From a virus, in IMG/VR virus record IMGVR_UViG_3300031772_000222, positions 1-27,758 of that record: a stretch of DNA of 27,758 nucleotides, one strand, 5' to 3'. The notes beneath the pieces are model-generated. The model was not told where the DNA came from. It searched no databases and saw only the letters and a program-made list of their open reading frames with translations. Both the position numbers and the translations under genes were made by a program. How positions within the stretch are numbered: position 1 is the stretch's first letter; every line of letters begins with the position of its first letter. Of the stretch, positions 4,504-27,758 are shown piece after piece.

Positions 4504-5187
4504 ATGGAACAGAAAATATGGTCACTTTATAGAATTACAAATAAAATTAATCAAAAAGTTTACATCGGTCAAGCCGAAAACTATGAACATCGTTGGGCGG
4601 ATCATAGGCGAGCTGTGAGAAATAATAGGCCGACTCAGACAATTCATTATGCTCTAATTAAATATGGATTAGAGCATTTTGATTTTGAAATCATTGCTTC
4701 TTGTAAAACTCAAGATGACGCTAACTGTATTGAAACACAATTGGTTACACAGTATGATAGTTTTATTAAAAATGGCAAAGGATATAATGCAACTTTAGGT
4801 GGCATGAACGCCCCTAAGACTGAGGAATGGAAACGTAAAGTTTCAGAAAAGTTGATGGGACATGAAGTATCGCAAGAAACTCGTGATAAGGTTTCCAAAG
4901 GTAATACTGGCAAAATACGTTCCGAAGATTTTAAGAATGATGTAAGTAATTTTCATAAAGGAAAATTGGTTTCCGAAGAGACTAGGCAAAAACTATCAGA
5001 TATAAATAAAGGTAATACTAATTTCAAGGGCAAGTATCATTCTGAGGAATCTAAGCAAAAAACATCTAAAGCTAATAAGGGCAGAAAACCATCTAAGTTA
5101 GCTATACAAAAGGCCCAAGAAGCTTTTACTGGTAAAACTTGGAAAGTTATAGATGGCAAGCGTGTTTGGATAGAAAAACCTAATTAA
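4504..5187 (+). CDS. GIY-YIG homing endonuclease with NUMOD3 repeats
   Basis: This 227-residue protein is a selfish DNA-cutting enzyme that would copy its own gene into related phages lacking it. The N-terminal GIY-YIG domain (1-90) has LYRITN (8-13), VYIG (19-22), the likely catalytic Arg30 in EHRWADH and Glu77 in CIETQL. After it come at least three NUMOD3-type DNA-binding repeats of the form S-x-E-x-(R/K)-x-K-(L/V/T)-S (about 118-195). The ribosome-binding site is TTGGAGG. The gene sits between the replication and virion modules, next to a terminator, a typical site for free-standing homing endonucleases. It is not inside an intron as far as can be seen. Confidence 0.9.
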   Translation: MEQKIWSLYRITNKINQKVYIGQAENYEHRWADHRRAVRNNRPTQTIHYALIKYGLEHFDFEIIASCKTQDDANCIETQLVTQYDSFIKNGKGYNATLGGMNAPKTEEWKRKVSEKLMGHEVSQETRDKVSKGNTGKIRSEDFKNDVSNFHKGKLVSEETRQKLSDINKGNTNFKGKYHSEESKQKTSKANKGRKPSKLAIQKAQEAFTGKTWKVIDGKRVWIEKPN

Positions 5188-9474: not shown

Positions 9475-10233
9475 ATGAACAAGCCAATGTACAAAAAAAT
9501 TCTGGAGCATCCAGATAAAGATGAAATTATATCAAAGTTGGTAATTGGAATATCACCAACTGATGTACATGATTGGCTTAAAGCAAAATATACTAATGTA
9601 AGTGAAGTTAAGTTTGTTTTAACTGAAAAAAATGTTAAGTCATTCCAAGATAATTATTTAGATTTCTATAATGATATGATGGTAGATTTATCTAAAGTAA
9701 AAACTTCTATAGCGCTTAGTACACAAGATCAATTAGCATTAGATGTTAAGAGTAATCCTACATATAAAGATGCTTTACTTAAAGTGGCTAATAAAGAATT
9801 AGATATTGAAACTATTATGGGCACTATGGCCGTAAATGTAGAGATGCGTATGGCCCAGGTATTCGATACCATGATGGCCGACCCTAACAATATTAATACT
9901 AAAATAGATAGATTATTCGGAGAATATGCTGATATTCTTGGCAATCTTCTTGACAAGTATCATAAATGGAAAGAGAAATCTACCCCAGATCAGATCATCC
10001 AACACAATGTAACTTTGCAAGTTGTAGATCAGCATATTTCGGTATTTCATGATGTAATCAAGGAAGTTTTGTCACAAATGGATTTAGAGACATCTATGTA
10101 TTTCTTAGAGGTTTTTAATGAAAAAATGTCAAAACTAAAGGCTCCAACTCAGGATGCTGGCCCTACCCAAGATATGAAAATGGCAGAAGCTAAATTACTT
10201 AATGAAACAATTAACCAAAAAGTCAATCAATGA
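9475..10233 (+). CDS. Helical protein with HTH-like N-terminus; possible terminase small-subunit-like protein
   Basis: The 252-residue protein begins with a segment (about 5-65) containing ILEHPDKDEIISKLVIGISP then TDVHDWLKAKYTN. This resembles N-terminal DNA-binding regions in which one helix is followed by (G)-x-S-P-x-x-(V)-x-x-W-L-K. I associate that with phage small-terminase-like proteins, but I have not aligned it. The rest is helical: residues 95-215 include NKELDIETIMGTMAVNVEMR and are rich in Met and Asp, and the tail is Gln/Lys-rich. GAAGGAAC before the ATG is a good ribosome-binding site. The large terminase is about 5.6 kb downstream, so the pairing is plausible but unproven. Confidence 0.5.
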   Translation: MNKPMYKKILEHPDKDEIISKLVIGISPTDVHDWLKAKYTNVSEVKFVLTEKNVKSFQDNYLDFYNDMMVDLSKVKTSIALSTQDQLALDVKSNPTYKDALLKVANKELDIETIMGTMAVNVEMRMAQVFDTMMADPNNINTKIDRLFGEYADILGNLLDKYHKWKEKSTPDQIIQHNVTLQVVDQHISVFHDVIKEVLSQMDLETSMYFLEVFNEKMSKLKAPTQDAGPTQDMKMAEAKLLNETINQKVNQ

Positions 10234-12089
10234 AATCTCTGAAACCATCTCATGATCCATTAATAGATTTTCGTTCATATAAGGACGAAGATTTGGAAAT
10301 TACAGATGATAAACGAGAAGATGTTGAAAGACTAATGAAGTTTTTTGATGATCATGGAATTGATTATAGTAAGTTTGATCCATCTAAAATTACTAAATTA
10401 GATTTAGGTAAAGCCGCTTATCCTAATAATGATTCATATATGCATATCCCAGGACAGCATAATACTCAAAAATGGCTACAAGCAATTAGTGAAATCTATG
10501 GCAAAGAAAGCGAAGGCTCTGACAGAGTAAAAGCTATTCGCCAAGTAACTTCTGGCTGGAATATAATGGAGACTTTTGATTTCTTAAATTGGGTCAAGTT
10601 TCATGAAGCGGGAGATCATATGAAATATAAGTTCGCACAACTATGGTATGAAAACCCTACAATGGGCCCAGGTTATTTTTTGCAAGTAAAAAAGGATCCA
10701 GAGCCAACTGAGGATACACATGCCGCTACTGGTCAAGATATCGATTTTGCCAAAGAGCGTGCTGGAGCCGATGCAGAAAAAAGACAGACTATCGAGAAGC
10801 AAAGAAACAAAATTATTGGTCGATTAGATTCCGCCGAAAAATTGCTGCGCTCTCCAGACGGTCATACATTTTCTGGAAAAGAGTTCGAATCACTTCTTGA
10901 ATCTATTTACCAATTAAAGAAGAAAATCCATATGGTAAATAAGATTAGCTCTTCTACAAGATTATATGAAGATATGATTGTTCGTGAAGGAAATGTTCTT
11001 TATAAGCAAGGATTTGTTAAAGCTGCAAATGTATTATATTCAGCTGCACAAACTCCTGCTGCATCTGGCGAACAAGCCAAAGGTAAGCCAGGTGGCACTG
11101 AAGCATTAATCCCAGCATCTCCAGGTGATCCATCTGGAGCAGGAAATCCAGGAGCCCCAGGCGGATTACCATCTGTTGGCCCAGGAATGCCACAAGGTGC
11201 TCCATCTTCAGCAGCTCCAGAGAGCATTGCTAACGAAACATCTCCAACTCCACCAGGAATTGAAAAGTTCTTAGCTGGATTAAATGAAGGCCCAAACTCT
11301 CCAACTGACGGTTCAGATGCAGAAGATAATTTAGAAGTAGAAGATACTATTGATGTTTTAGATGTTGATACTGGTATTTTAGTAACTGAAGCTCAAATGC
11401 CTCCACCAATTGATGAGCCTATGACAACTTCACCCGCTCCAGCAGCTCTAGATCCATCTGCACCAGTCAAGGCACCTAAGCCCGCTACCCCTACAGCTAA
11501 GCCAAAGGCAAAGCCTTTAGATGAGCCATTAGAGGTTACAGAAGACGATATACCAAAACCAAAGGAACAGGCTAACACCAGCGATTTTGATGCCAAGGTA
11601 GATGCAGTATTTTCTAATATTACTGTTGCGGATGTTGTTGCTAAATTAGAAGATTTAGCCAAAGTATTCAAGACTCGCGAAATTCCAAGACAACTTGGTA
11701 TCGTTGATATGATGCTTGATAGCCTTGGACTTGCTTCATATTTCCCATCATTATCTGAAGCAACTAATAAGGCACTCGAATCAAACAACTATATTTCTAC
11801 TCGTGTAGAGGATATCATTTCTAAATTGCGTGGAGCTATTGATACCAAAGATATTGATCTTAAGGGTGGCGATATTGATCGACCAGAAGTAGCCGGACTT
11901 AAGGGCAAGCTTGAAGATGATGCTGCAAAAGAAAAGTCTAGAAAACAAATGAGAAAAGATCAAGAAAATATGGAATTAGCTGACAAGGGCAAAGAAACTC
12001 CAGAAGTTGAAATTGAAGATGATTTAGCTCCTCCAGTTACGCCAACTTCGAAGCCACCAGTTCCGAAAGCTCCACTTCCGCCAGCCTAA
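10230..12089 (+). CDS. Large virion-module protein with long Pro/Ala/Gly-rich linker
   Basis: I do not recognise a family for this 619-residue protein. Residues 1-270 are folded, helical and aromatic-rich (including GWNIMETFDFLNWVKFHEAG and FAQLWYENPTMGPGYF). Residues about 275-450 are low-complexity Pro/Ala/Gly/Ser with collagen-like stretches such as GDPSGAGNPGAPGG and an acidic patch (NLEVEDTIDVLDVDTG). Residues about 450-570 return to a helical domain, and the tail is again Pro-rich (PVTPTSKPPVPKAPLPPA). It overlaps the previous gene as ATGA. Two folded domains joined by a disordered tether suggest an assembly or connecting role. Confidence 0.6.
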   Translation: MKSLKPSHDPLIDFRSYKDEDLEITDDKREDVERLMKFFDDHGIDYSKFDPSKITKLDLGKAAYPNNDSYMHIPGQHNTQKWLQAISEIYGKESEGSDRVKAIRQVTSGWNIMETFDFLNWVKFHEAGDHMKYKFAQLWYENPTMGPGYFLQVKKDPEPTEDTHAATGQDIDFAKERAGADAEKRQTIEKQRNKIIGRLDSAEKLLRSPDGHTFSGKEFESLLESIYQLKKKIHMVNKISSSTRLYEDMIVREGNVLYKQGFVKAANVLYSAAQTPAASGEQAKGKPGGTEALIPASPGDPSGAGNPGAPGGLPSVGPGMPQGAPSSAAPESIANETSPTPPGIEKFLAGLNEGPNSPTDGSDAEDNLEVEDTIDVLDVDTGILVTEAQMPPPIDEPMTTSPAPAALDPSAPVKAPKPATPTAKPKAKPLDEPLEVTEDDIPKPKEQANTSDFDAKVDAVFSNITVADVVAKLEDLAKVFKTREIPRQLGIVDMMLDSLGLASYFPSLSEATNKALESNNYISTRVEDIISKLRGAIDTKDIDLKGGDIDRPEVAGLKGKLEDDAAKEKSRKQMRKDQENMELADKGKETPEVEIEDDLAPPVTPTSKPPVPKAPLPPA

Positions 12090-12097
12090 GAAAATGA

Positions 12098-13708
12098 ATG
12101 AAACTCAAAGAATTGCTTCAACAAATGCAGGGAATACAGGAGAAGTTAGGCACTTCTGCGCCTTATATTTGTGGAGGAACTCCAAGAGATAGGCTGATGA
12201 AACGCATAGATAATATCTCAGATTTAGATATTACCACTGGCGATAAAACTGTGCAATACCTGGCTCAGGAATTTGGCGGCGAGCTAGCTAAGAAATACAA
12301 TGTAACTCGTCGTAGCCACGAAGATGGTCATAGCTCTATTTATATTGGTAATTTTAAGATGGACTTTTCTTCCAATTTTAATGTTCCAAATATTGACAGC
12401 TTACTGAATGCAAAAGGAATTAAGACTCCAACTGAAATGCAAAAAGAAATGTTCAGTAGAGATTTCACTTGCAATGCATTGTTGTTATCTATAGACTTAA
12501 AGAACTTAGTTGATCCAACAGGAAATGGATTTAATGATATTAAAGATAAAGTAATTAGAACCTGCTTATCTCCTGAAATAACTCTTACAACAAATAAGAA
12601 TAGAGTTATTAGAGCAATATATTTGGCATCTAAATTAGATTTTGATATTGATCCTAAAATTATAGAGTTCGTACAAAAAAATCCACAATCAGTTAAAATT
12701 TCCAGTGAAAAAACATTGGCAGAAAAACTGAATGAAGCATTTAATAGAGATGCTGATAAGGCGGCTTATTATATTACCAAAATGGGATTATGGAAAGATA
12801 TTCCTATTACAGAGGTAGCAAGGCCATATTATATGAAGAGCCTTCAGCAATCAACTAAAGTAGGTTATTTTCAGGGTGGTGGTGGCGTTAACGAACCAAC
12901 TCCAAAGAAAAAAAAGTATAAGTCAGAGCCAGCGCTTGTGGTTCAGCCTCGCTTCAAGGAACCATTTTATCGCAACTACGATTTGTATGATGTTCCTGGA
13001 TTCGATCACATTGGCCCCGGTGCCGGTTATCACTCGATGCAAAAGTATAAAAGCGTCTCGGAATTTTTAGATGCTAAACGAAAAAAAATGAAGGATAAGT
13101 ATAAGGCCGATGACTCTTGGAAACAAGATGACGGCAAAATTACTAAAAAGAATCCATCTGTCAAAGCTCGTACCGTTATTTTAGAAAGAATTATCAAGAT
13201 GGCTGGCCCTAATTATGATTTAGGAAAAGGCCTATATGATAATATGGATAAATATGATAGTGTAAAAGATTTTAGAGAAAGCTCTCCGCACGGCCAAGCG
13301 GCCCTAATGCATAAAGATATCAATCATATTGATTTTCCATTAGATAAATATACTGATCCTGCTATAACTGCACCTGAACCTACTGATGAAGATGGTGGTA
13401 ATCCAGTAGGTGAGGCCAATTTGATGGGAGGATATTTAGATGAATATCTACCAAAGGATGATGCTGAAGATAAACCTCCAACAGCCCTTGATTTTGGAAG
13501 AGATTATACTGAAGGTGAGACAAGAGAGGCTCCAAAAAATATGGAGCATATTGAGAAACTTTTAGATAAGTACTTATCTCATGGCACTTTTGGCCTACCA
13601 GATGGTGTAGATTTGCCAGATGAAGAATTAAAAGATCCAAATCCTAATCCATTTTATGGTACTACTGATGTAGGAATCACTAGTTATGAAGATAAATGGA
13701 ACATATAA
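12098..13708 (+). CDS. CCA-adding/poly(A)-polymerase-like nucleotidyltransferase fused to a novel tail
   Basis: Residues 1-240 resemble a class II tRNA nucleotidyltransferase / poly(A) polymerase head. There is a GG motif with Arg-Asp (ICGGTPRDRLM, 24-34), the metal-binding pair Asp42/Asp44 in SDLDITT, a likely third carboxylate Asp89 in KMDFSS, RDFTCNALL (121-129), and a neck motif NKNRVIRAIYLASKLDFDI (167-184). Such enzymes add CCA or other nucleotides to RNA 3' ends. Residues 241-536 are not part of the family. They start with GYFQGGGGVNEPTP (256-269), shared with the protease/scaffold-like gene at the right edge, and hold short repeats such as MxKYxSVxxF and LDxY. The acidic tail is Pro/Asp-rich. 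The ribosome-binding site is weak. Location among virion genes is unusual for this enzyme. Confidence 0.78.
   Translation: MKLKELLQQMQGIQEKLGTSAPYICGGTPRDRLMKRIDNISDLDITTGDKTVQYLAQEFGGELAKKYNVTRRSHEDGHSSIYIGNFKMDFSSNFNVPNIDSLLNAKGIKTPTEMQKEMFSRDFTCNALLLSIDLKNLVDPTGNGFNDIKDKVIRTCLSPEITLTTNKNRVIRAIYLASKLDFDIDPKIIEFVQKNPQSVKISSEKTLAEKLNEAFNRDADKAAYYITKMGLWKDIPITEVARPYYMKSLQQSTKVGYFQGGGGVNEPTPKKKKYKSEPALVVQPRFKEPFYRNYDLYDVPGFDHIGPGAGYHSMQKYKSVSEFLDAKRKKMKDKYKADDSWKQDDGKITKKNPSVKARTVILERIIKMAGPNYDLGKGLYDNMDKYDSVKDFRESSPHGQAALMHKDINHIDFPLDKYTDPAITAPEPTDEDGGNPVGEANLMGGYLDEYLPKDDAEDKPPTALDFGRDYTEGETREAPKNMEHIEKLLDKYLSHGTFGLPDGVDLPDEELKDPNPNPFYGTTDVGITSYEDKWNI
12863..13033 (+). repeat. Third, diverged copy of the GGGVNEPTP module
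   Basis: This segment encodes residues 256-312 of the nucleotidyltransferase fusion. It begins GYFQGGGGVNEPTP, keeps a KY pair six residues later, and ends FDHIGPGAGYH. The two copies at 26857-27366 match in the same order: GGVNEPTP, KY, then F-x-x-V-G-P-V-D-G-x-H. The middle is diverged. The bases around VNEPTP are also nearly the same in all three copies. Confidence 0.7.
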
Positions 13709-13770: not shown

Positions 13771-14706
13771 ATGTCATTACAGTCAACAGCACAAGAATTA
13801 ATAGTTGTCGATCCATCTATGGGTCAACCAATGGCAGGTGATGGGATGTCATTGATTCCATTGGAAGTTTCCGACTCTCCAGCAGAACTTGGATTCCCAG
13901 AACATGAAGAACATTCTCATGAAATGGTAGTACATGAGGATCCTCAAGATCTTGAAATTGTAATGGATTTGCCAGGAGCCCCACCAGGAACTAAAGATCC
14001 AGAGCCAGAGCCTGAACTTGAAGTTTCAGAGCATGACACTGATACCGCTAAAGCAGTTGATGAAGATCCTGCTAAGACTAAAGCAACTGAGAAATGGGAC
14101 TGGGCAAAACGCGGACCAAAGGGATTTATTGCTTGGGTCAAAGAGCGCTGTGATGATGTTCCAAAGCACTCCGGTTATGATACAGCAGGCCTAGAGCGTG
14201 CCGTCGCTTATCTTGAAAGATTAGACAACGAAGTTTCTAAAGCCATGAGATTAGATCTTGATGGTGAATTAGATGCAAACCAAATTGAAAAAGTTAGATC
14301 CATAATTGATAATGGTATTGAAAGACTACATGACCGTCTTGATAAAATTAAGACAAGCAAGAAAAAGAGCCGTAAGAAGAAGGCTGAGTTCTCTGCTGAT
14401 GGACTTGTAAAAGAAGCTCAGAAAATTACTGGCGTTCAAGGTGTTTATATTACTGTTCCACTATTGATTTCTAGAATTGCTAGAGTTTGTATTAATGGTA
14501 TGGTTTCAGCCGGACATGATATTGAAGATTTATATGAGAGGCAAGTTAAGTTCTATAAGTTAAATGATCGTGAGCAAGCAGAAGTAATGCAGTTAATGGC
14601 AGATATGGGATATGCAGTCCGTCAAGATCGAGGCTTCATGCCTGATCAAGATGTTGAAATTAGCAGCAGCGATAATATGGATTGGGCAGCTAACTACATA
14701 GGATAA
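13771..14706 (+). CDS. Unrecognised virion-module protein with acidic N-terminus and helical C-terminal domain
   Basis: In this 311-residue protein, residues 1-105 are disordered and acidic (His/Glu/Pro-rich, for example PEPEPELEVSEHD). Residues 108-190 are helical, with KWDWAKRGPKGFIAWVKERC and a helix pair. A Lys/Arg run (SKKKSRKKK) at about 196-204 separates this from a compact C-terminal domain (210-300), VYITVPLLISRIARVCINGM onward, that looks like a helical fold. No function is known to me. The ATG is preceded by TAGAGG, and a 62-base gap upstream may hold a promoter that I cannot define. The gene is followed two bases later by the next start. Confidence 0.6.
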   Translation: MSLQSTAQELIVVDPSMGQPMAGDGMSLIPLEVSDSPAELGFPEHEEHSHEMVVHEDPQDLEIVMDLPGAPPGTKDPEPEPELEVSEHDTDTAKAVDEDPAKTKATEKWDWAKRGPKGFIAWVKERCDDVPKHSGYDTAGLERAVAYLERLDNEVSKAMRLDLDGELDANQIEKVRSIIDNGIERLHDRLDKIKTSKKKSRKKKAEFSADGLVKEAQKITGVQGVYITVPLLISRIARVCINGMVSAGHDIEDLYERQVKFYKLNDREQAEVMQLMADMGYAVRQDRGFMPDQDVEISSSDNMDWAANYIG

Positions 14707-14708
14707 TT

Positions 14709-15350
14709 ATGAGTAGAAACAATAGAAACTTGCCCGTAATTTCGAGGCAATCTGACGAGTCAATTAGTGAAGATCACTGGCTAAAACAATTCCAAAAGAG
14801 CTTATTAAAGGACGCTGTGCAACCAAAAGCTCAAGAGTCTTTATTTGATCAGATCAATACCATTATGAATGGAAAGTCCAAATATACTTCCGTTGATTCT
14901 GCCGTTAAAGACATGCAGGAACGAAGCGGTTTGACTGCATATCTAAATAAAATTAGTGAAACTGCCGCAGAGAAGCCCTCGGCCAAAAAAGTAGTTGCTT
15001 CGGATAATCAAGAAGCTATTGATAAGAAAGTTCCAATGGTATTTAGGAAACATCCAGCAATTAAAACAACTTTAGAAAACTATATAAAAAGTACTAGAGG
15101 CAATTTACCTGTTCCTGCTATTATTGATAAGCTAAGATCCATTCATCAAAATGATGTATCTGATGCACAAGACTGGGAAGATCCAAAATTACTTATAGAA
15201 GTTAGCGGGCAAAACTTAAAAGAGAAAAGTAATAATCCAGATAACTTTACCAACTATAATCACTTGGGTAATCATGATAGTGATTCTGCAGGAGACATTG
15301 ACGCATCAAATACTGATGCCTTCTTATCATTAACTCCAGCTAAGATATAA
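14709..15350 (+). CDS. Unrecognised protein upstream of the large terminase
   Basis: This 213-residue protein has no family that I recognise. It is hydrophilic and mostly helical up to about residue 150 (DHWLKQFQKSLLKDAVQPKA; IDKLRSIHQNDVSDAQDWED). Its Asn/Asp/Ser-rich tail (165-213) looks disordered. It starts two bases after the previous stop. Its last 11 bases overlap the 3' end of the antisense HNH gene, which has inserted between it and the terminase. A role in head or packaging is suggested only by position. Confidence 0.55.
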   Translation: MSRNNRNLPVISRQSDESISEDHWLKQFQKSLLKDAVQPKAQESLFDQINTIMNGKSKYTSVDSAVKDMQERSGLTAYLNKISETAAEKPSAKKVVASDNQEAIDKKVPMVFRKHPAIKTTLENYIKSTRGNLPVPAIIDKLRSIHQNDVSDAQDWEDPKLLIEVSGQNLKEKSNNPDNFTNYNHLGNHDSDSAGDIDASNTDAFLSLTPAKI

Positions 15351-15834
15351 TCTTTTTTGGACGAGTAGGGTAAACTATAATTTCTGGCTTATTATGTGGA
15401 CAATATCCAAAAAATCCTTTTGAGCAATTACAGTTATAGCAAAGTAATTGATATTCCTCTTTAGGAAAATTATTTTTAATTAACCAGCGGTAAAGTTTGC
15501 CGCCCGTCTTTTTACCATTTTGTCTACGATCTTCAGCGCCATTATTATTAATATGATCTATTGTGAGAAATTCTAGAGCAACTTCGCCACAACAAGAGCA
15601 TTTGCCGCCATACCCCTCTATTACTTTTATTTTAACAGATAGATCATAAATACGCTGTTGCTCCCTAATGAGTTCTTTCCTATCAATATATTTTTTTTGA
15701 GAACGATGTTTTTCACATGATTTACATAGGTATTTTCCGTGTTCAAAACTGTATTTATTTGTATTATTGGCATCCAAATCAATTAAACAATCTTTACAAA
15801 TCTTATTTTCGGCTTTTTTATTTGTGTTTTTCAT
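15340..15834 (-). CDS. Antisense HNH homing endonuclease
   Basis: This 164-residue protein is the only complete gene on the minus strand. It has an N-terminal four-Cys site (Cys13, Cys16, Cys37, Cys40), then an HNH nuclease domain (75-145): Cys79/Cys82, the catalytic-type DHINNNG (93-99) and LLCYNCNCSKG (130-140) with Cys132/Cys135. This is the layout of small phage HNH endonucleases that often lie beside terminase genes. It would spread its own gene by cutting phage DNA that lacks it. Its own promoter-like GGATATATT lies 13 bases upstream. It converges on the preceding gene with an 11-base overlap, so it has squeezed in with no spare sequence. Confidence 0.88.
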   Translation of the reverse strand: MKNTNKKAENKICKDCLIDLDANNTNKYSFEHGKYLCKSCEKHRSQKKYIDRKELIREQQRIYDLSVKIKVIEGYGGKCSCCGEVALEFLTIDHINNNGAEDRRQNGKKTGGKLYRWLIKNNFPKEEYQLLCYNCNCSKGFFGYCPHNKPEIIVYPTRPKKIIS

Positions 15835-15856: not shown

Positions 15857-17734
15857 ATGACTTACACTACTGAAAAAGATTTATTTTTAAAGCTCAAGAA
15901 AGATTTACTTAATATTGACCCAGTATTTTTTTGTGAAAATTACCTAATATTGGATGGAAAGCCCTTTCGTATTCGCGGAAATGGATATCGCCCCTTTAGT
16001 GAAATTTACAGATATATTGGAATTAAGGCATTAGAGCCGACTGCCAAGCCAGTTATTATCGTTAAAGGTCGTCAGGTTGGAGCCACTACGATGGCGAGCG
16101 CCCTAGAGATGTATTTCATGGGTTCCGGCATTTTCGGAGTAGGTGATAAGCCACCTATCCGTATTATTCATGCATTCCCCCAACTTGAATTAGCAGCGGC
16201 CTACTCTAAAACAAAATTGAATCAGATGATTTTATCTTCTATGCCAATGCCAACGGATGAAAATAATAAGTCAGCAAAAACAAAATCTTATATGCAGTCA
16301 TTATTAGATCAGTCCGCTGCAACTAATGATTCTTTACATTTTAAGCAATTTACTGGTGGAAACCATTTATGGGTAGAGTCAACTGGACTTGACGCTGACC
16401 GTATCATGGGTCGTACAGCTGATATTATTTTTTTTGATGAGGTTCAGAAGACTACTGGCCAGGCAATCGGAAACGCTCTTAAGATTTTAACAACCGCCAA
16501 ATATGGTGAAAAATCTAAGGGCGTTCGTATTTTCTTTGGAACTCCAAGACGCAAGGGATCAGATTTTCATAAAATGTGGCAGACATCTTCTCAGCAATAT
16601 TATTATTTAGGCTGTGAGTCATGTCTAAAACATTTCCCACTTTATACTCCAGACTCTGATGATTGGAAGAAGATTTGGATTCATGGTATGATTGTTAAAT
16701 GCACTCATTGCGGCAAAGAGCAAAATAAATTAGATGCAGCGGAGCGCGGCAAGTGGGTAGCATTTAAGGAGCCAGAAGAATCTGATATGATTGGATTTCA
16801 TATTAATCAGCTTTATATGCCTATGTTTACACGAGAAGCAATCGATAACGAGTTGCCAGGAAAACATCCAATTAATACTGAACGCGTATTTATGAATGAA
16901 GTTCTTGGAGAGTTTTTCCAAGGCGATTCAAGTCCAATTACTCCAGAAGAAATAAAAGCGGCTTGTGCTGATGATAGAAGATTTAGCGCTCGTATCGGAC
17001 CTAATAGAGATAATAACTCTGAGATTGTGGTACTAGGAATCGACTATGGTGCCCGTGCTGACTTAGAGCAACTTGCAAATCCAGATAAAATAAAAACTGC
17101 TGGCCAATCTTTTAGTACGGCAGTAGTTCTATCATGTAAGGGCCCCGGCTTATTGCATATTGAATATGCTACAAAGTTTAAGCGAAATGATATGGAAGCT
17201 AAAAAAGGAATTATTGATCAGTTAATGAGACAATATAGTATTCAATTAGCTGTTGGAGATATTGGTTATTCTAATGACTTTTCTGGATTATTACATCAAG
17301 TATATGGAGATAAGTATTTAGTATCTAGAGCCCATAATAAAATAAATGGCCATGTAAAATTCACGGCCGATGCATTTCCAAAAGAAATTATTTTTGAGAG
17401 AGATTATTATATCGGCGAATTATATGAACAAATGAAAAAGGGTATGATTAAGTTTCCTTGGAAGAGTTTTGAGAAGATGGCGTGGTTAATTGATCACTGC
17501 TGTAGTATGGAGATTAAGCCATCTATTTCTAAAATGGGTGGCGATCCATCTATTCATTATGTAAAAGGAAGTACCCCAAACGATGGTTTTATGGCATTAT
17601 TGAATGCATACATAGCCTATAAGTTTATAGTTACTAAGGGATTTACCAATAATAACCCTATGCTTCAGCAGGCAACATTTGCCAGCCGCAATAAACCACT
17701 TGTTATTACTGGGTTTATTCCGCGCAAGTTTTAA
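15857..17734 (+). CDS. terL: Large terminase subunit (packaging ATPase/nuclease)
   Basis: This 625-residue motor pumps DNA into the prohead and cuts it. The ATPase half has Walker A KGRQVGATT (70-78) and Walker B IIFFDE (190-195, catalytic Glu195), with a FGTP motif at 227-230 as coupling segment. A four-Cys zinc ribbon (Cys253, Cys256, Cys282, Cys285) sits between the ATPase and nuclease, as in the GpA-type terminase branch. The RNase-H-like nuclease has Asp396 (GIDYG), Asp468 (GDIG) and Asp576 (NDGFMALLNA). There is no visible ribosome-binding site before the ATG, perhaps because the HNH gene inserted directly upstream. Family assignment is strong; the subfamily is an inference from the zinc ribbon. 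Confidence 0.93.
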   Translation: MTYTTEKDLFLKLKKDLLNIDPVFFCENYLILDGKPFRIRGNGYRPFSEIYRYIGIKALEPTAKPVIIVKGRQVGATTMASALEMYFMGSGIFGVGDKPPIRIIHAFPQLELAAAYSKTKLNQMILSSMPMPTDENNKSAKTKSYMQSLLDQSAATNDSLHFKQFTGGNHLWVESTGLDADRIMGRTADIIFFDEVQKTTGQAIGNALKILTTAKYGEKSKGVRIFFGTPRRKGSDFHKMWQTSSQQYYYLGCESCLKHFPLYTPDSDDWKKIWIHGMIVKCTHCGKEQNKLDAAERGKWVAFKEPEESDMIGFHINQLYMPMFTREAIDNELPGKHPINTERVFMNEVLGEFFQGDSSPITPEEIKAACADDRRFSARIGPNRDNNSEIVVLGIDYGARADLEQLANPDKIKTAGQSFSTAVVLSCKGPGLLHIEYATKFKRNDMEAKKGIIDQLMRQYSIQLAVGDIGYSNDFSGLLHQVYGDKYLVSRAHNKINGHVKFTADAFPKEIIFERDYYIGELYEQMKKGMIKFPWKSFEKMAWLIDHCCSMEIKPSISKMGGDPSIHYVKGSTPNDGFMALLNAYIAYKFIVTKGFTNNNPMLQQATFASRNKPLVITGFIPRKF

Positions 17735-17802: not shown

Positions 17803-19665
17803 ATGGTTGTTAATAAAGCTCAAAAAACATGGGTAGGACCTTCTAACTCTGATCAATACTTAGGATCAAGGTCTAATTTGCCACAAGTTAGTTCATTAAT
17901 GTCTAAAACAGTCTCTGACATTAGACGCCAAGGAATTGCCACTGAAGTTGAACAAGGCCTATTTAGAGATGGTTCAGGGCCATCAACTAAAGATGAGGGT
18001 TCAACGCTAAATGGTCGCGTAGTTTCATCTGTTGGTGTTAATAAATACGCCCAAGTAGTTAGTAGTTCTGGCGGCAGTTATAGAGGCGGCTCCGGAGATA
18101 CTGTAAAGCAAACTCCAGAAGTTTATTCGCCACTTTGGTTAAACTCAAATCTTAATTTACCTCGTGATAGGGCCACCATTAATGCTTGGTGTCGCAGCTT
18201 TTATGCACTAAATCCATTTGTTCATAATGCTATTAATCTTCATAGCACATATCCAATTAGTAAATTAAATATCAAATGTCCTAATAAAGATATTGAAAAG
18301 TTTTTCAATGATATGATTGAAGAAATTGATTTAATGAATATATGTGTGCAAATTGCACAAGAATATTGGCTATTAGGTGAGTCATTTGTTTATGCAGAGC
18401 TTGATGAAAGCCGTGGCAAATGGAGCAGATTACTTATTCAGAACCCAGATTATATGATCGTTAAGCGCACTGTAGTTGCAAATGAGCCAATAATCATGTT
18501 GCGTCCAGATGAAAATCTAAAGAAAATTGTTTTCTCTAATCGTCCAACCGACATTGAGCAGCGCAAACAATTAAATAATCATATTATCGATTCCGTTAAG
18601 CGCGGTGAAAATATTCCACTTGATAATTTCCATGTATCTCATTTAGCCCGCAGAATTAGCCCTTATGAGATTCGTGGTACAGGCTTACCAGTCTGTATTT
18701 TTCGTCAATTAATGTTATTTGATAAGCTTAGAGAGTCTAAATATGCTCAAGCCGATAACATGATTAACCCATTAACATTGGTTAAAATTGGAACTGATGG
18801 CCCAGAAGGCTTGCATCCAACTTTTGCAGACTTAGATGCTTGGAGAAATGTTTTTGAGGAAGCTCAATACGATAAGGATTTTAAGATATTTACTCACGCA
18901 GGCATTGCAGTTGAGCGCGTAGGATATGGTCAAGGTATCTATGATATCTCTGGAGATATTACTCAAATTATTAAAGAAATATATGTTGGTTTACAAGTTC
19001 CACCAGTATTAATGGATGGTGGAGCTGATACTACTTATGCAAATGGCGGTGTTGCTCTTGATGTTTTGAGACAACGATACATGCAATTCCGCAATATGAT
19101 GTCAACATGGTTAAAGAGAAAGATCTTTGCTCCAATTTCTAAAATCCAAGGATTTTATGATTACTCGGGTGGCGAGAAGCAGCTTATTGTTCCAGAGGTA
19201 GATTGGAACCATATGTCTCTGTTTGATGCAGGCGATTATATTAATACTTTAGTTACTTTAACTCAAGGTGAAGGCGAAGCAAAGAGAGCATCTGTTCATA
19301 CTTTATATCGTTCATTAGGTCTTGAATTTGAGGATGAGATTCGTAAGATGAGAAAAGAATCTATTCAAGCAGCTATTAATGTAAAAGAAAAGGCAGCCTT
19401 AGCAGCTATGGACTTGAATGCTCTTAGAGCATTGGATGAAGAAGATGAAATTCCAGAAGTAGAAGTGGCTCCAGGAGCAGCTCCAGGTGGTGAATCACCA
19501 CTTCCAGGTGAATCTGCTGGTGGTCCAGGCGCTGGCCCTCCAGGAGGCGGATTACCAGGATTAGATATGGGTGGACCTCCAATGCCTCCAAGTGGCGGTC
19601 CTCCACCTCCACCCCCACCACCTCCAAGTGGTGGCCCTCCTCCAGCGCCAGCAAAACCGGCATAA
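17803..19665 (+). CDS. Portal protein with polyproline tail
   Basis: The portal forms the dodecameric ring at one head vertex through which DNA enters and leaves. In this 620-residue protein, residues about 105-520 show portal-like features: NAWCRSFYALNPFVHNAINL, IAQEYWLLGESFVYAELDE, ISPYEIRGTGLPVCIFRQLM, and YVGLQVPPVLMDGGADTTYA in the region that precedes the crown. The first 100 residues are Ser/Gly-rich and probably disordered. After about residue 550 the tail is Pro/Gly-rich, ending with nine prolines in a row and then SGGPPPAPAKPA; this is not usual for portals. TTGAGGA precedes the ATG. The gene directly follows the large terminase, the normal order in tailed phages. Confidence 0.85.
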   Translation: MVVNKAQKTWVGPSNSDQYLGSRSNLPQVSSLMSKTVSDIRRQGIATEVEQGLFRDGSGPSTKDEGSTLNGRVVSSVGVNKYAQVVSSSGGSYRGGSGDTVKQTPEVYSPLWLNSNLNLPRDRATINAWCRSFYALNPFVHNAINLHSTYPISKLNIKCPNKDIEKFFNDMIEEIDLMNICVQIAQEYWLLGESFVYAELDESRGKWSRLLIQNPDYMIVKRTVVANEPIIMLRPDENLKKIVFSNRPTDIEQRKQLNNHIIDSVKRGENIPLDNFHVSHLARRISPYEIRGTGLPVCIFRQLMLFDKLRESKYAQADNMINPLTLVKIGTDGPEGLHPTFADLDAWRNVFEEAQYDKDFKIFTHAGIAVERVGYGQGIYDISGDITQIIKEIYVGLQVPPVLMDGGADTTYANGGVALDVLRQRYMQFRNMMSTWLKRKIFAPISKIQGFYDYSGGEKQLIVPEVDWNHMSLFDAGDYINTLVTLTQGEGEAKRASVHTLYRSLGLEFEDEIRKMRKESIQAAINVKEKAALAAMDLNALRALDEEDEIPEVEVAPGAAPGGESPLPGESAGGPGAGPPGGGLPGLDMGGPPMPPSGGPPPPPPPPPSGGPPPAPAKPA

Positions 19666-23400: not shown

Positions 23401-24168
23401 ATGATACAGCGCTTTAGAAAAGTAACCGATAATCTTTATCGAGGAAGCGCCCCTTCTATTCAAGATGTCGCTTGGTTAAAAGACAATCTTGGTATTAAAA
23501 AAATTGTAAGTCTAGATAAAATGACTGGCGATAAAATTGATCGTGCCACTAAGCTTTTACATATTAAACATATTATGCTGCCTATTGAGATGGAGCACTT
23601 TCTTCCATCTTTATTACATTTTGTTAAGCAAAATCTAAAAGAATTATTTTTAGAAGGCGGCCCTGTTTATGTTCATTGTGCCGCTGGCAAAGATAGAACT
23701 GGATTAGCAGTAGCTTTAGTCGAATGCAAGTATCTTGGTAAAAAACCAGAAGATGCTATCGAAGAGGCTAAGGTATTAGGATTTGGTTTAGATGTAGATC
23801 CAAGACCAATCGCAGTTTTTGAGAAACTTATTAGATGCTGTAAGCCAGGTAAGGATAATAATAGTACTGATATAGTTTCCAATGAACGAGAGTATGTTGG
23901 AGATAATCGAGACTCATTTTTAGATGAGGGACATCAGGGATCATTTGCTCCATTTCTTAATGTAACTAGACAGAATCCTATGGATGCAGTATATAATTTT
24001 ATAGTAGATCAGCCTCAAACTCGCGAAAATTATAATCCAGGTAAGCCAATAACGGAACATGATCATAAAGAAGAAGATGTCGTTCCAATGGTTGGAGTCT
24101 ATAACAATGATGCTGGAGGCCGAGGATTTGGCCCAACAGAAAATAATGGTGGATTTTTTTATGATTAA
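23401..24168 (+). CDS. Dual-specificity / tyrosine-type protein phosphatase
   Basis: Residues 1-140 look like a cysteine-dependent phosphatase of the dual-specificity group. The P-loop HCAAGKDRTG (92-101) has nucleophile Cys93 and phosphate-binding Arg99, and an N-terminal strand runs YRGSAPSIQDVAWLKDNLGI. Such enzymes remove phosphate from proteins, RNA 5' ends or phosphoinositides. A C-terminal region of about 115 residues (FAPFLNVTRQNPMDAVYNF; NYNPGKPITEHDHKEEDV) is low-complexity and does not belong to the family. The gene sits among virion genes and overlaps the next start, so the enzyme might be packaged or act during assembly. The substrate cannot be told from the sequence. Confidence 0.8.
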   Translation: MIQRFRKVTDNLYRGSAPSIQDVAWLKDNLGIKKIVSLDKMTGDKIDRATKLLHIKHIMLPIEMEHFLPSLLHFVKQNLKELFLEGGPVYVHCAAGKDRTGLAVALVECKYLGKKPEDAIEEAKVLGFGLDVDPRPIAVFEKLIRCCKPGKDNNSTDIVSNEREYVGDNRDSFLDEGHQGSFAPFLNVTRQNPMDAVYNFIVDQPQTRENYNPGKPITEHDHKEEDVVPMVGVYNNDAGGRGFGPTENNGGFFYD

Positions 24169-24877: not shown

Positions 24878-25471
24878 ATGCGTAATTGTACCATATATAA
24901 AATAACCAATTTTGCTAATGAAAAAGTATATGTTGGACAAACTTGGTGCTCAATTACTAAAAGATTTAATGAGCATAAGAAGAGTGATAGTAATAAAAAA
25001 TTATTTTATGCTATGAATAAGTATGGTAGAGATAATTTTTTAATTCAGATGTTATCAACTACTATTACGCAAGAAGATGCTGATTATTGGGAAATTTTTT
25101 ATATTACTGAATATAATAGTATAAATAATGGTTATAATATTCGAGAAGGCGGCTCTCGCGGAAAGCAATCTGAAGAGACTAAAATAAAAATATCAGTGGC
25201 GCATATTGGAAAAATGCACTCAATACATACTAAAGAAAAAATGTCCAAATCACGAATAGGATTAAATCCATCTATTGAAACTCGTATAAAAATGTCTAAA
25301 TCAAAATTAGGTGAAAATCATCCGAAATCTAAATTAACTTGGGATATAGTTGGACATATAAGAGAAGATTATAATACTGGGTTAGTTTCATATAGAGAAT
25401 TAGCCGCAAAATATGATACGGATTATGGAACAGTTGGCAAAATTATCAATAATAAGATATGGAAATTATAA
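24878..25471 (+). CDS. GIY-YIG homing endonuclease with NUMOD3 and HTH-like tail
   Basis: This 197-residue selfish endonuclease has a GIY-YIG domain (1-90) with IYKITN (6-11), VYVG (17-20), the likely catalytic Arg29 (TKRFNEH) and Glu72 (WEIFYI). NUMOD3-type repeats follow (98-145: SEETKIKISVAHIGK; TKEKMSKSRIGL; IETRIKMSKSKLG). A helix-turn-helix-like end (154-195) has ELAAKYDTDYGTVGKIINNK. It differs from the first GIY-YIG protein in its tail, so they are not recent copies. The ribosome-binding site is poor. Its stop overlaps the next ATG (TAATG), so the element inserted exactly at that gene's start. Confidence 0.9.
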   Translation: MRNCTIYKITNFANEKVYVGQTWCSITKRFNEHKKSDSNKKLFYAMNKYGRDNFLIQMLSTTITQEDADYWEIFYITEYNSINNGYNIREGGSRGKQSEETKIKISVAHIGKMHSIHTKEKMSKSRIGLNPSIETRIKMSKSKLGENHPKSKLTWDIVGHIREDYNTGLVSYRELAAKYDTDYGTVGKIINNKIWKL

Positions 25472-25632: not shown

Positions 25633-27758
25633 ATGTCATTTGTTAAACTAGGTGAACTAATTGAAATTAACAGAGTGGAGAATACGGAATCGTGTCTTCC
25701 AGCTGTTAGTGCTGAGATTTTAGAGAACTTTAGAAAATTTGCAACTAACCTGAAGAAGGTCGCTCCAAAAGCTGAAGATTTTTTGTATTTTTCCGCCGTA
25801 ATGATGCACGCAGCAGAAGCTGCTGGCCTTAACGATGACGGAACAACAAAATTAACTATTAAAGGTGAACCACTTCAAGTGGGTTGGGATAAACGTGGCG
25901 GAACATGGCGTTGGACCAGCAATGATTCGAGCGTTAAGCCTTATAAGAATTCTAATGGCGATATCTTCCCCGAAGAAGAACTAGTCAAAGCATATAGAAA
26001 ATGGGTAGGAAAGCCTCTTTGCATCGATCATAAGTCAAGCTCGGTAGATCATGTAAGAGGCTTTATTGTTGATACTCATTATGATCGTGTTCATAGAAGA
26101 GTTATTGCATTATGCGCTTTAGATAAAGCTGGCTATCCTCAATTAGCGCGTCAAGTATCAACTGGAGTTTCTAACTGCGTATCAATGGGTACGGCAGTAG
26201 GAAAAGCAATTTGTACTGATTGTGCAACTGTCGCTCGCACGGAACAAGATTTCTGCGACCACATGAGACGCAAGAGTGGCTACGGTGAAATTAACGTTGA
26301 TCTAAATCCATTAGAGTTATCTATTGTTGTTAATGGTGCCGATCCAAAAGCTAATATTAAACATATTATTGCAGCAGCTAATACATTAAATGCTTATGTT
26401 GAAACTAAACAAAATGAATTAAGCAAATTCGCAGAAAGTTTTACTGCTAATATTAATTTTACTCAGGGCGCCTCATCTGATAGCTCCGCTGTAACTAATG
26501 TTACTGTAAATTCCAAAGATTTAGAGACATTCCGCAAGGATGTTGATAAAGCAATTGCAGATTTCCAGAACCTGCAATCTTCATTAGCAAATGAAGAAAA
26601 TATGCCAGAACATGGTAATGATATGGCATCTGATCAATTGACGGAAACTCCGTCTGCTGATTCTGGATTGGCTCCACCACATGCAAGATATGCTTCTGCT
26701 GAGGTAGGAGTGGACCTTATCGCTGAACTTCAAGAGGTCACAAAGACCATCGAAACCAAGTTGAGCCAAATGAAACAAAGCTTGGATAAGTTAGCAAACA
26801 CTTCTACTATAAACACACAAGAGGAAAATATGTCAGGTACAAATAATATCAAACAAGGTTACTACCAAGGTGCAGGCGGCGTCAATGAACCAACCCCAGG
26901 CCAAGTAAAGTATCCAAAAGATCCTCTAAATGAGCAACTTCGTGAAAAAGAAGATAGACAAATGCAAGGTCAATCTCCATTCCCAAGTGTAGGGCCAGTT
27001 GATGGCATGCACCCAAGCCCAGATTCTGCGGAGCAATCCAATGAACTTGAGCGCAAGAAAATGCTTGCCCGTGCAGAGTCAGAAGAGCGCGCGACTCGCC
27101 GTCAAGCGATCGTTAACCTTGCAAAGTCAGCTCTTGAAAATAGAACTGCATACTTCCTAGGTGGCGGGGGCGTTAATGAGCCAACCCCAGGTAAAGTAAA
27201 GTACCCAGCAGACAAGCTTAATGAACAACTTCGTGATCGTGAAGATAAGCATATGACCGGACAAAAGCCTTTCCCAGGCGTTGGTCCAGTTGATGGCCTT
27301 CATCCATCTCCAAGCTCCGCAGATGTTTCCGACGAATTAAAGCGTAAGGAAATGCTACGTAGAGCTGGCCTTAGAGCAAAGTTTGTTAGAGTATCTAATG
27401 ATAATGGCACTGCTGATTTGGGAAACAGTGCATGGGAAGTTTATAATGGCGACAAGCTTATCTTAACTGCATCAGTAAATGAATTATCTGGTGGTCGTTC
27501 TGAAGTATTACATGATAGTATCGCAACTAAAGAGTTTGGAACCAAATTACTTGAAAAAGTAAAAGCACAAGGTGCTGATAAAATTCGTGCTCTTGTAAAG
27601 GGTGCTCAAGCAGCCCCTCCACCTCCTCCAGTAGATTCTTCTGCTCCTCCAGCTATGGAAGCACCTCCAGTAGATGCTCCTCCAGCTGAAGATGCGGGTA
27701 AATCTGGTGATCAGAAGGAATCAGCAGTTGAATTAGCCGAGAAGGCAAGAGACATTGG
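25633..27758 (+). CDS. Prohead-protease-like gene with repeat/scaffold region (3' end outside window)
   Basis: The frame is open for 708 residues to the window edge. Residues about 105-240 resemble a prohead maturation protease of the herpesvirus-assemblin-like fold: WVGKPLCIDHKSS with likely catalytic His133, a strand pair (GFIVDTHYDRVHRRVIALCA), and GVSNCVSMG with likely catalytic Ser184. Directly after is a zinc-like insert, Cys194, Cys197, Cys208, His210. Residues 240-400 are helical. Two tandem GGGVNEPTP repeats lie at 409-578, then a domain (580-660) with WEVYNGDKLILTASVNEL, and a polyproline stretch (661-685). The ribosome-binding site is a run of Gs before ATG 25633. The protease would mature head proteins; the rest could be scaffold. 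A second start is at 26830. Confidence 0.7.
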   Translation, partial: MSFVKLGELIEINRVENTESCLPAVSAEILENFRKFATNLKKVAPKAEDFLYFSAVMMHAAEAAGLNDDGTTKLTIKGEPLQVGWDKRGGTWRWTSNDSSVKPYKNSNGDIFPEEELVKAYRKWVGKPLCIDHKSSSVDHVRGFIVDTHYDRVHRRVIALCALDKAGYPQLARQVSTGVSNCVSMGTAVGKAICTDCATVARTEQDFCDHMRRKSGYGEINVDLNPLELSIVVNGADPKANIKHIIAAANTLNAYVETKQNELSKFAESFTANINFTQGASSDSSAVTNVTVNSKDLETFRKDVDKAIADFQNLQSSLANEENMPEHGNDMASDQLTETPSADSGLAPPHARYASAEVGVDLIAELQEVTKTIETKLSQMKQSLDKLANTSTINTQEENMSGTNNIKQGYYQGAGGVNEPTPGQVKYPKDPLNEQLREKEDRQMQGQSPFPSVGPVDGMHPSPDSAEQSNELERKKMLARAESEERATRRQAIVNLAKSALENRTAYFLGGGGVNEPTPGKVKYPADKLNEQLRDREDKHMTGQKPFPGVGPVDGLHPSPSSADVSDELKRKEMLRRAGLRAKFVRVSNDNGTADLGNSAWEVYNGDKLILTASVNELSGGRSEVLHDSIATKEFGTKLLEKVKAQGADKIRALVKGAQAAPPPPPVDSSAPPAMEAPPVDAPPAEDAGKSGDQKESAVELAEKARDI
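26821..27758 (+). CDS. Possible nested scaffold product from an internal start at 26830 (3' end outside window)
   Basis: Within the protease-like gene, GAGG (26821-26824) stands five bases before an in-frame ATG at 26830. This codon is residue 400 of the long product, and the protein from there begins MSGTNNIKQGYYQGAGGVNE. It would contain only the tandem repeats, the following domain and the Pro-rich tail, without the protease. The same arrangement is established in lambda, where scaffold Nu3 starts inside protease gene C. Whether this site is used is unknown. Confidence 0.5.
26857..27366 (+). repeat. Two tandem copies of the GGGVNEPTP module
   Basis: Copy 1 covers residues 409-481 (26857-27075) and copy 2 residues 507-578 (27151-27366), a period of 98 residues. 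Both keep GGVNEPTPG, KVKYP/QVKYP, then N-E-Q-L-R, E-D-(R/K), M-x-G-Q-x-P-F-P, V-G-P-V-D-G-x-H-P-S-P, and end K-(K/E)-M-L-x-R-A. The 25 residues between them are helical. A third, diverged copy lies in the nucleotidyltransferase gene. Confidence 0.85.

Follow-up and report, generated by a model that had tools for sequence, protein, structure and literature searches.

A putative altered CCA-enzyme relative among the head-building genes of a group of giant phages

Introduction

Class II CCA-adding enzymes select C and A through the Asp and the Arg of an EDxxR motif, as described in the available part of PMC11784652, and this pair, of which the Asp is one member, lets them recognise C and A with no nucleic-acid template to copy. 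Jumbo-phage CCA-adding enzymes are presented as tRNA repair and translation genes in the available portions of PMC7824862 and PMC7162821. What, then, would a relative of these enzymes do when its gene lies among those that build the phage head? The question is raised by the window analysed here, i.e., the whole 27,758-base stretch of virus record IMGVR_UViG_3300031772_000222 (positions 1 to 27,758), a virus fragment carrying a terminase, a portal and a head-maturation-protease-like ORF. A preliminary description of this DNA had placed a CCA/poly(A)-polymerase-like nucleotidyltransferase among virion genes, which the three genes just named bear out, and had suspected something other than an ordinary tRNA-repair enzyme. 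The gene encodes a shortened and altered, though intact-looking, relative of the enzyme that completes tRNA ends, and it is carried by a group of giant phages among their head-building genes.

A class II nucleotidyltransferase reduced to head and neck

The ORF and its conserved elements are as follows.

12098-13708, + strand: CCA/poly(A)-polymerase-like nucleotidyltransferase ORF, ATG start, 536 aa
12098..12868, + strand: nucleotidyltransferase domain, residues 1-257, class II CCA/poly(A) polymerase head and neck (Pfam PF01743, PHROGs, AlphaFold2 model, fold matches)
12173..12229, + strand: motif A region with GG (26-27), RD (30-31) and the catalytic carboxylates of DLD (42-44), invariant in a 14-row alignment
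12362..12364, + strand: Asp89, presumed third carboxylate (D in 64 of 72 rows)
12458..12481, + strand: motif B, RDFTCNAL (121-128), with R121 and D122 in 72 of 72 rows

The coordinates first given for this gene are exact, and its assignment is upheld by several kinds of comparison. PF01743 covers residues 23-154 (E 2.4e-13, 51 bits against a cut-off of 23), PHROG tRNA-nucleotidyltransferase families match with E 7.9e-16 and 2.6e-11, and the PDB sequence matches are headed by 9ns4 (E 1.5e-14). In two sets of records, 11 of 11 and 16 of 16 contain a relative above the curated PF01743 cut-off; these records were picked for the presence of the gene, so that finding it in all of them is no result. 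The structural comparison with class II enzymes that had been proposed as a check gave the same answer: the AlphaFold2 model of residues 1-257 (mean pLDDT 78, pTM 0.71) is closest to class II CCA enzymes (Foldseek E 6e-10), with a VIA Z of 17.3 and rmsd 4.8 over 229 aligned residues for the predicted model, and the BFVD matches are again mostly CCA/PAP-type proteins.

The residues G26-G27, R30-D31, D42-L-D44, D89 and R121-D122-F-T-C-N126 are all present in the window ORF and invariant in the 14-row alignment. A larger alignment of 72 rows, freed of repeated copies of a contig and of exact duplicates among the sequences, contains 64 family rows, two of them partial (L112 and L121). There, GG, DxD and the RD at 121-122 are invariant wherever covered (67 of 67 covering rows for DxD, the remaining 5 of 72 being without coverage), Asp31 is replaced by Ala in one row, and every covering family row has D at position 89. 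The gene is under purifying selection, with dN/dS of 0.05-0.21 across 9 pairs.

The body and tail domains, with which such enzymes grip the tRNA, are missing, as had been claimed: Pfam searches of the window ORF up to E 0.1 match the head domain alone, and complete stand-alone relatives measure 241-316 aa. Nor does the ORF resemble a bacterial PcnB-type poly(A) polymerase, since Pfam and the alignment find in it neither the RNA-binding C-terminal domains nor the EDxxR of such enzymes. Judged by sequence and predicted structure, the window ORF is a member of the class II CCA/poly(A)-polymerase superfamily, made of head and neck with the catalytic residues kept.

An altered base template

The early statement that all visible catalytic residues are kept holds for the positions above; it missed a change in the motif that selects the nucleotide.

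12590..12604, + strand: altered motif D, T165 N166 K167 N168 R169, where class II enzymes have EDxxR (alignments; EDxxR in 80 of 80 controls)

Among 64 distinct family sequences, position 166 is N in 57, S in 4, H in 2 and D in 1, i.e., the template Asp is lost in 63 of 64, while R169 is kept in all 72 aligned rows. Bacterial class II controls show ED..R in 80 of 80 cases (75 by script, 5 by eye); these are the best 80 of 587 confirmed sequences, gathered with patterns outside motif D, and as a set they are near a single class II branch. The Asp is likewise kept in 19 of 19 phage CCA enzymes, comprising 8 of 8 distant or canonical rows and 11 of 11 further second copies (EDGLR). The sole family members with the template Asp are L117 and L118, which share one distinct sequence, RDAKR. 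Because L118 keeps the Asp and belongs to a 435-kb record (G025) in which 27 tRNA hits but not a second CCA enzyme were found, it may be the member nearest to the ancestral function.

Asn, Ser or His, together with the kept Arg, would be unable to form the contacts of the CTP/ATP-selecting Asp, so base choice is expected to be changed or relaxed. As the altered part is the one that chooses the nucleotide, a job other than ordinary tRNA repair is probable. Cho, Verlinde and Weiner reportedly reengineered CCA enzymes toward UTP/GTP in 2007. In a selection on the human enzyme with a randomised EDxxR, D165 and R168 were unchanged in everything recovered, even though the library included Asn, according to the available part of PMC11784652. 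A natural family in which this Asp is replaced, the catalytic centre is strongly selected and the same genome often encodes a normal copy as well would be a ready-made system for studying class II base choice and the other uses to which class II enzymes are put.

The C-terminal half is a fused neighbouring gene

The remainder of the ORF had been seen as about 290 unrelated residues replacing body and tail. Comparison with relatives gives it another origin, as a neighbouring gene that is separate in most of them.

12863..13705, + strand: C-terminal half (residues 256-536), a downstream gene joined by fusion; disorder is predicted for most of it (pLDDT mostly below 50), and most relatives have it as a separate, overlapping ORF

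Fifteen close relatives were found, and 91 were confirmed by a profile scan, 80 of them being listed. In most, the C-half is the next ORF after a separate nucleotidyltransferase gene, with its own start and a usual overlap of about 14 nt. The two form one ORF in the clade of the window and, separately, in the L085-L090 group, so that 14 of 66 tree rows are fused (the tree holds 66 of the 72 rows, partial rows and four distant rows being left out). Parsimony requires a minimum of 3 changes, and a single fused clade is rejected with p-AU 0.0074, for a group that was named after the tree had been seen. The nucleotidyltransferase and the C-half have been fused at least twice.

In the AlphaFold2 model of the full-length protein, the C-half is without confident structure, residues 251-536 being mostly below pLDDT 50. 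It is present at 66 of 80 loci; in divergent members other genes follow the nucleotidyltransferase, so the tie between the enzyme and the C-half protein is not universal. Programmed frameshifting between the split genes was set aside, because the second gene starts independently, with a Shine-Dalgarno-like stretch of its own inside the end of the nucleotidyltransferase gene.

Two observations concern the junction. In L058, L059, L081, L064 and L067, extra sequence or an ORF, possibly a mobile gene, lies between the nucleotidyltransferase and the C-half. In the divergent L113, L115 and L116, the ORF that takes the place of the C-half appears J-domain-like by eye.

A conserved place in the head and packaging block

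The surroundings of the gene in the window are listed below.

10230..12089, + strand: 619-aa upstream neighbour, conserved (76 of 80 loci have it; the other 4 are cut short upstream)
13771..14706, + strand: 311-aa downstream neighbour, conserved (76 of 80 loci have it)
15857..17734, + strand: terminase large subunit, TerL (phrog_675, E 5.6e-60)
17803..19665, + strand: portal protein (phrog_16240, E 1.8e-51)

Across 80 distinct loci, counted after removal of repeats of one contig, TerL was found at 71 and the portal at 57, and at every locus with enough flank the nucleotidyltransferase gene lies within the head/packaging block. The 619-aa and 311-aa neighbours had no match in the named phage collection. 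The major head protein relates the phages bearing the gene to Bacillus phage G (53%), and Tunturi 5 is also a relative by this protein; the nucleotidyltransferase family was not found in the covered parts of the head regions of phage G (about 57 kb) and Tunturi 5 (42 kb). An alignment-based search of genome contigs for bacterial homes of the family returned 30 pattern matches, 0 of which were confirmed.

A short peptide shared with the protease ORF

The C-half opens with a peptide of about 19 residues (GYFQGGGGVNEPTP...), which recurs in the protease-like ORF further downstream.

12863..12904, + strand: shared peptide GYFQGGGGVNEPTP, at the start of the C-half and near the N-terminus in split relatives
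25633..27756, + strand: head-maturation-protease-like protein with a long extension, open at the window end (phrog_18299, E 1.2e-14)
26830..26832, + strand: candidate internal start in the protease ORF, with AAGAGGAAAAT before it and the shared peptide after it (start context, synonymous conservation)
26857..26898, + strand: copy 1 of the shared peptide in the protease ORF, GYYQGAGGVNEPTP (sequence match)
27148..27189, + strand: copy 2 of the shared peptide in the protease ORF, AYFLGGGGVNEPTP (sequence match)

Relatives of the protease-like ORF occur in 19 of 19 large records, as open frames of about 1144-1263 aa, and in one relative the MCP gene lies downstream. They carry one or two copies of the peptide, against two in the window. 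Many C-halves of split relatives start with M(S)xNKx(A/G)YFQGGGGVNEPTP or a variant, while the peptide is missing from several of them and from the second fusion (L085-L090). Profiles of the C-half and the protease ORF align with an hhalign E of 5.3e-15, and none of 100 column shuffles scored as well. The signal comes from the peptide alone: with columns from 15 on, 14 of 100 shuffles were as good. An 80-residue domain common to both proteins was accordingly rejected, the shuffle control leaving the peptide of about 19 residues.

In nearly all the protease rows listed, copy 1 is preceded by an ATG with AAGAGGAAAAT or a near variant upstream. Synonymous conservation in the compared part of the protease ORF peaks at, or immediately beside, the internal ATGs at window positions 26602 and 26830: of 669 seven-codon windows, the 12 highest have an observed-minus-expected value of 0.44-0.52, against a mean of 0.12 (sd 0.10), in a set of 19 distinct sequences that are partly close kin. 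These patterns suggest that a scaffold-like gene, perhaps two, is probably nested inside the protease ORF. The C/Nu3 genes of phage lambda, with their nested scaffold gene, offer a comparison.

The peptide is N-terminal in the split partner proteins and at the likely internal start of the protease ORF, and internal in the fused window protein. This internal position makes it uncertain whether the peptide could act in targeting when fused. Two C-halves (L012 and L070) and their protease ORFs (L155 and L156) show a joint change of the peptide from GGGGVNEPTP to GTEEPTP, a change not seen in the other phages. Such co-variation hints at a common binding partner or at gene conversion.

tRNA genes and second CCA enzymes

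No tRNA gene lies within the 27.8-kb window, as had been noted early on, but this reflects the shortness of the contig. The absence is uninformative, as the window is a short virus fragment and as many as 58 tRNA hits occur in large relatives. When tRNA genes were sought elsewhere, as the preliminary description had advised, six of the nine large records had between 34 and 58 hits (G006 41, G007 58, G009 34, G016 42, G019 55, G020 56) and one had 27 (G025). The variant nucleotidyltransferase is also kept in two nearly tRNA-free large records, with 1 hit in 394 kb (G010) and 2 in 406 kb (G024).

A separate canonical CCA enzyme is encoded in 13 of 27 records (2 of 11 and 11 of 16), and six of those examined are fragments of less than 45 kb. 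In the one relative tested, this canonical copy is matched over almost its whole length by phrog_2244, and its gene is close to that of the major head protein. No second CCA enzyme was found in the tRNA-rich records G006, G007, G016 and G025. With these four records, and with the Asp kept by the L118 variant, a tRNA role is possible in some members.

Comparison with known enzymes and head proteins

Solved class II CCA- and A-adding enzymes (4wby, 1vfg, 3h39, 1miv and others) have in common with the window family the head and neck fold, GG, DxD, RD and the Arg of motif D. The window family differs from them in having (T/S)N(K/R)NR in place of EDxxR, in the missing body and tail, in its head-gene context and in its fusion to another protein. 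CC-adding class II enzymes may likewise vary in the template, at its first position, as reported in the available part of PMC11784652, whereas the window family replaces the Asp itself too. Phage CCA-adding enzymes (phrog_2244, phrog_24229 and the second copies) belong to the same superfamily; unlike the window family, they are longer and keep (E/D)DxxR. Ordinary tRNA repair would have gained support from a close homologue with that function on record; in the collections searched, the named-phage matches to the window head domain are 25-30% identical and include no close relative.

A comparison with head targeting can also be drawn, in that a short N-terminal peptide would carry a protein into the prohead, beside protease and scaffold. 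T4 internal proteins and Alt have a capsid targeting sequence of this kind. Giant-phage ejection proteins, and giant-phage head proteins with short or long targeting propeptides, are described in the available part of PMC5694885. The window peptide is a different one and is internal in the fused protein. In a search of open-licence papers, where absence is weak evidence, none was found describing a template-altered class II member or a packaged or head-linked tRNA nucleotidyltransferase.

What the enzyme may do

The best explanation appears to be a derived terminal nucleotidyltransferase of head and neck, adding something other than CCA, tied to head assembly and possibly packaged; we lean slightly towards it. 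It would derive from class II tRNA nucleotidyltransferases by reduction to the catalytic head and neck; in the window phage it is fused to the gene that follows it in the head block. The enzyme would transfer an NMP from an NTP onto an acceptor end, probably of RNA, with changed or relaxed base choice. It would be produced together with the head proteins, and the shared peptide would bring it, or the partner protein in the split forms, to the assembling prohead. It may then be packaged and become active early after delivery to the next cell, in the manner of the packaged T4 enzyme Alt; this is the least certain step. A bolder version, in which a head-associated enzyme with a rewritten template, probably packaged and injected, would tag RNA or protein ends with non-CCA nucleotides (U, G or relaxed) at the start of infection, is tentative, and we consider it possible rather than probable. 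If true, the tagging activity would be new to the natural class II family and to phage virions. Given the head-gene context and the peptide shared with a head protein, packaging of an end-modifying enzyme can be tested directly.

An enzyme of changed specificity could instead work only in the host cytoplasm, late in infection, for example as a tailing enzyme for mRNA or tRNA fragments, in which case neither the fusion nor the peptide would have a targeting role. Stop loss in genes that overlap by about 14 nt could give a fusion, members without the C-half exist and one fusion lacks the peptide; set against this are the at least two fusions, the near-fixed position beside terminase and portal and the peptide common to the protease/scaffold ORF, and we find such a purely cytoplasmic role unlikely, if worth serious attention. 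Less plausible still is an ordinary CCA-repair enzyme that serves the phage's many tRNAs and sits in the head block by chance. Repair would fit the Pfam and PHROG family match, the 27-58 tRNA hits in seven of nine large relatives counted, the four tRNA-rich records in which no second CCA enzyme was found and the repair role given to jumbo-phage CCA-adding enzymes in the available part of PMC7824862. It sits badly with a template Asp lost in 63 of 64 sequences, at a position where the selection on the human enzyme allowed no change (available part of PMC11784652), with the missing body and tail, with a canonical enzyme elsewhere in 13 of 27 records and with the variant kept in nearly tRNA-free large records. 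The early suspicion of a function beyond ordinary tRNA repair thus becomes probable on the template, the domain content and the canonical copies. A catalytically dead fold, retained as a structural head protein, would explain the head-block position and the loss of template, body and tail; since lost catalysis would be expected to let catalytic residues drift, the invariance of GG, DxD and the RD at 121-122 where covered, the Asp89 of all covered family rows and the low dN/dS make it very improbable.

Other genes in the window

Further ORFs of the window were annotated in passing. Two GIY-YIG homing-endonuclease-like ORFs (phrog_314) lie at 4504-5187 and 24878-25471, the second just upstream of the protease ORF. 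Positions 23401-24168, among the head genes, encode a dual-specificity/tyrosine-phosphatase-like protein (Pfam E 3e-9). On the - strand, a 164-aa ORF at 15340-15834, between a 213-aa ORF and the terminase gene, has a weak zinc-finger-like match. A DnaJ-type co-chaperone, with a J domain, a C-terminal domain and a weak central domain, is encoded at 1856-2812.
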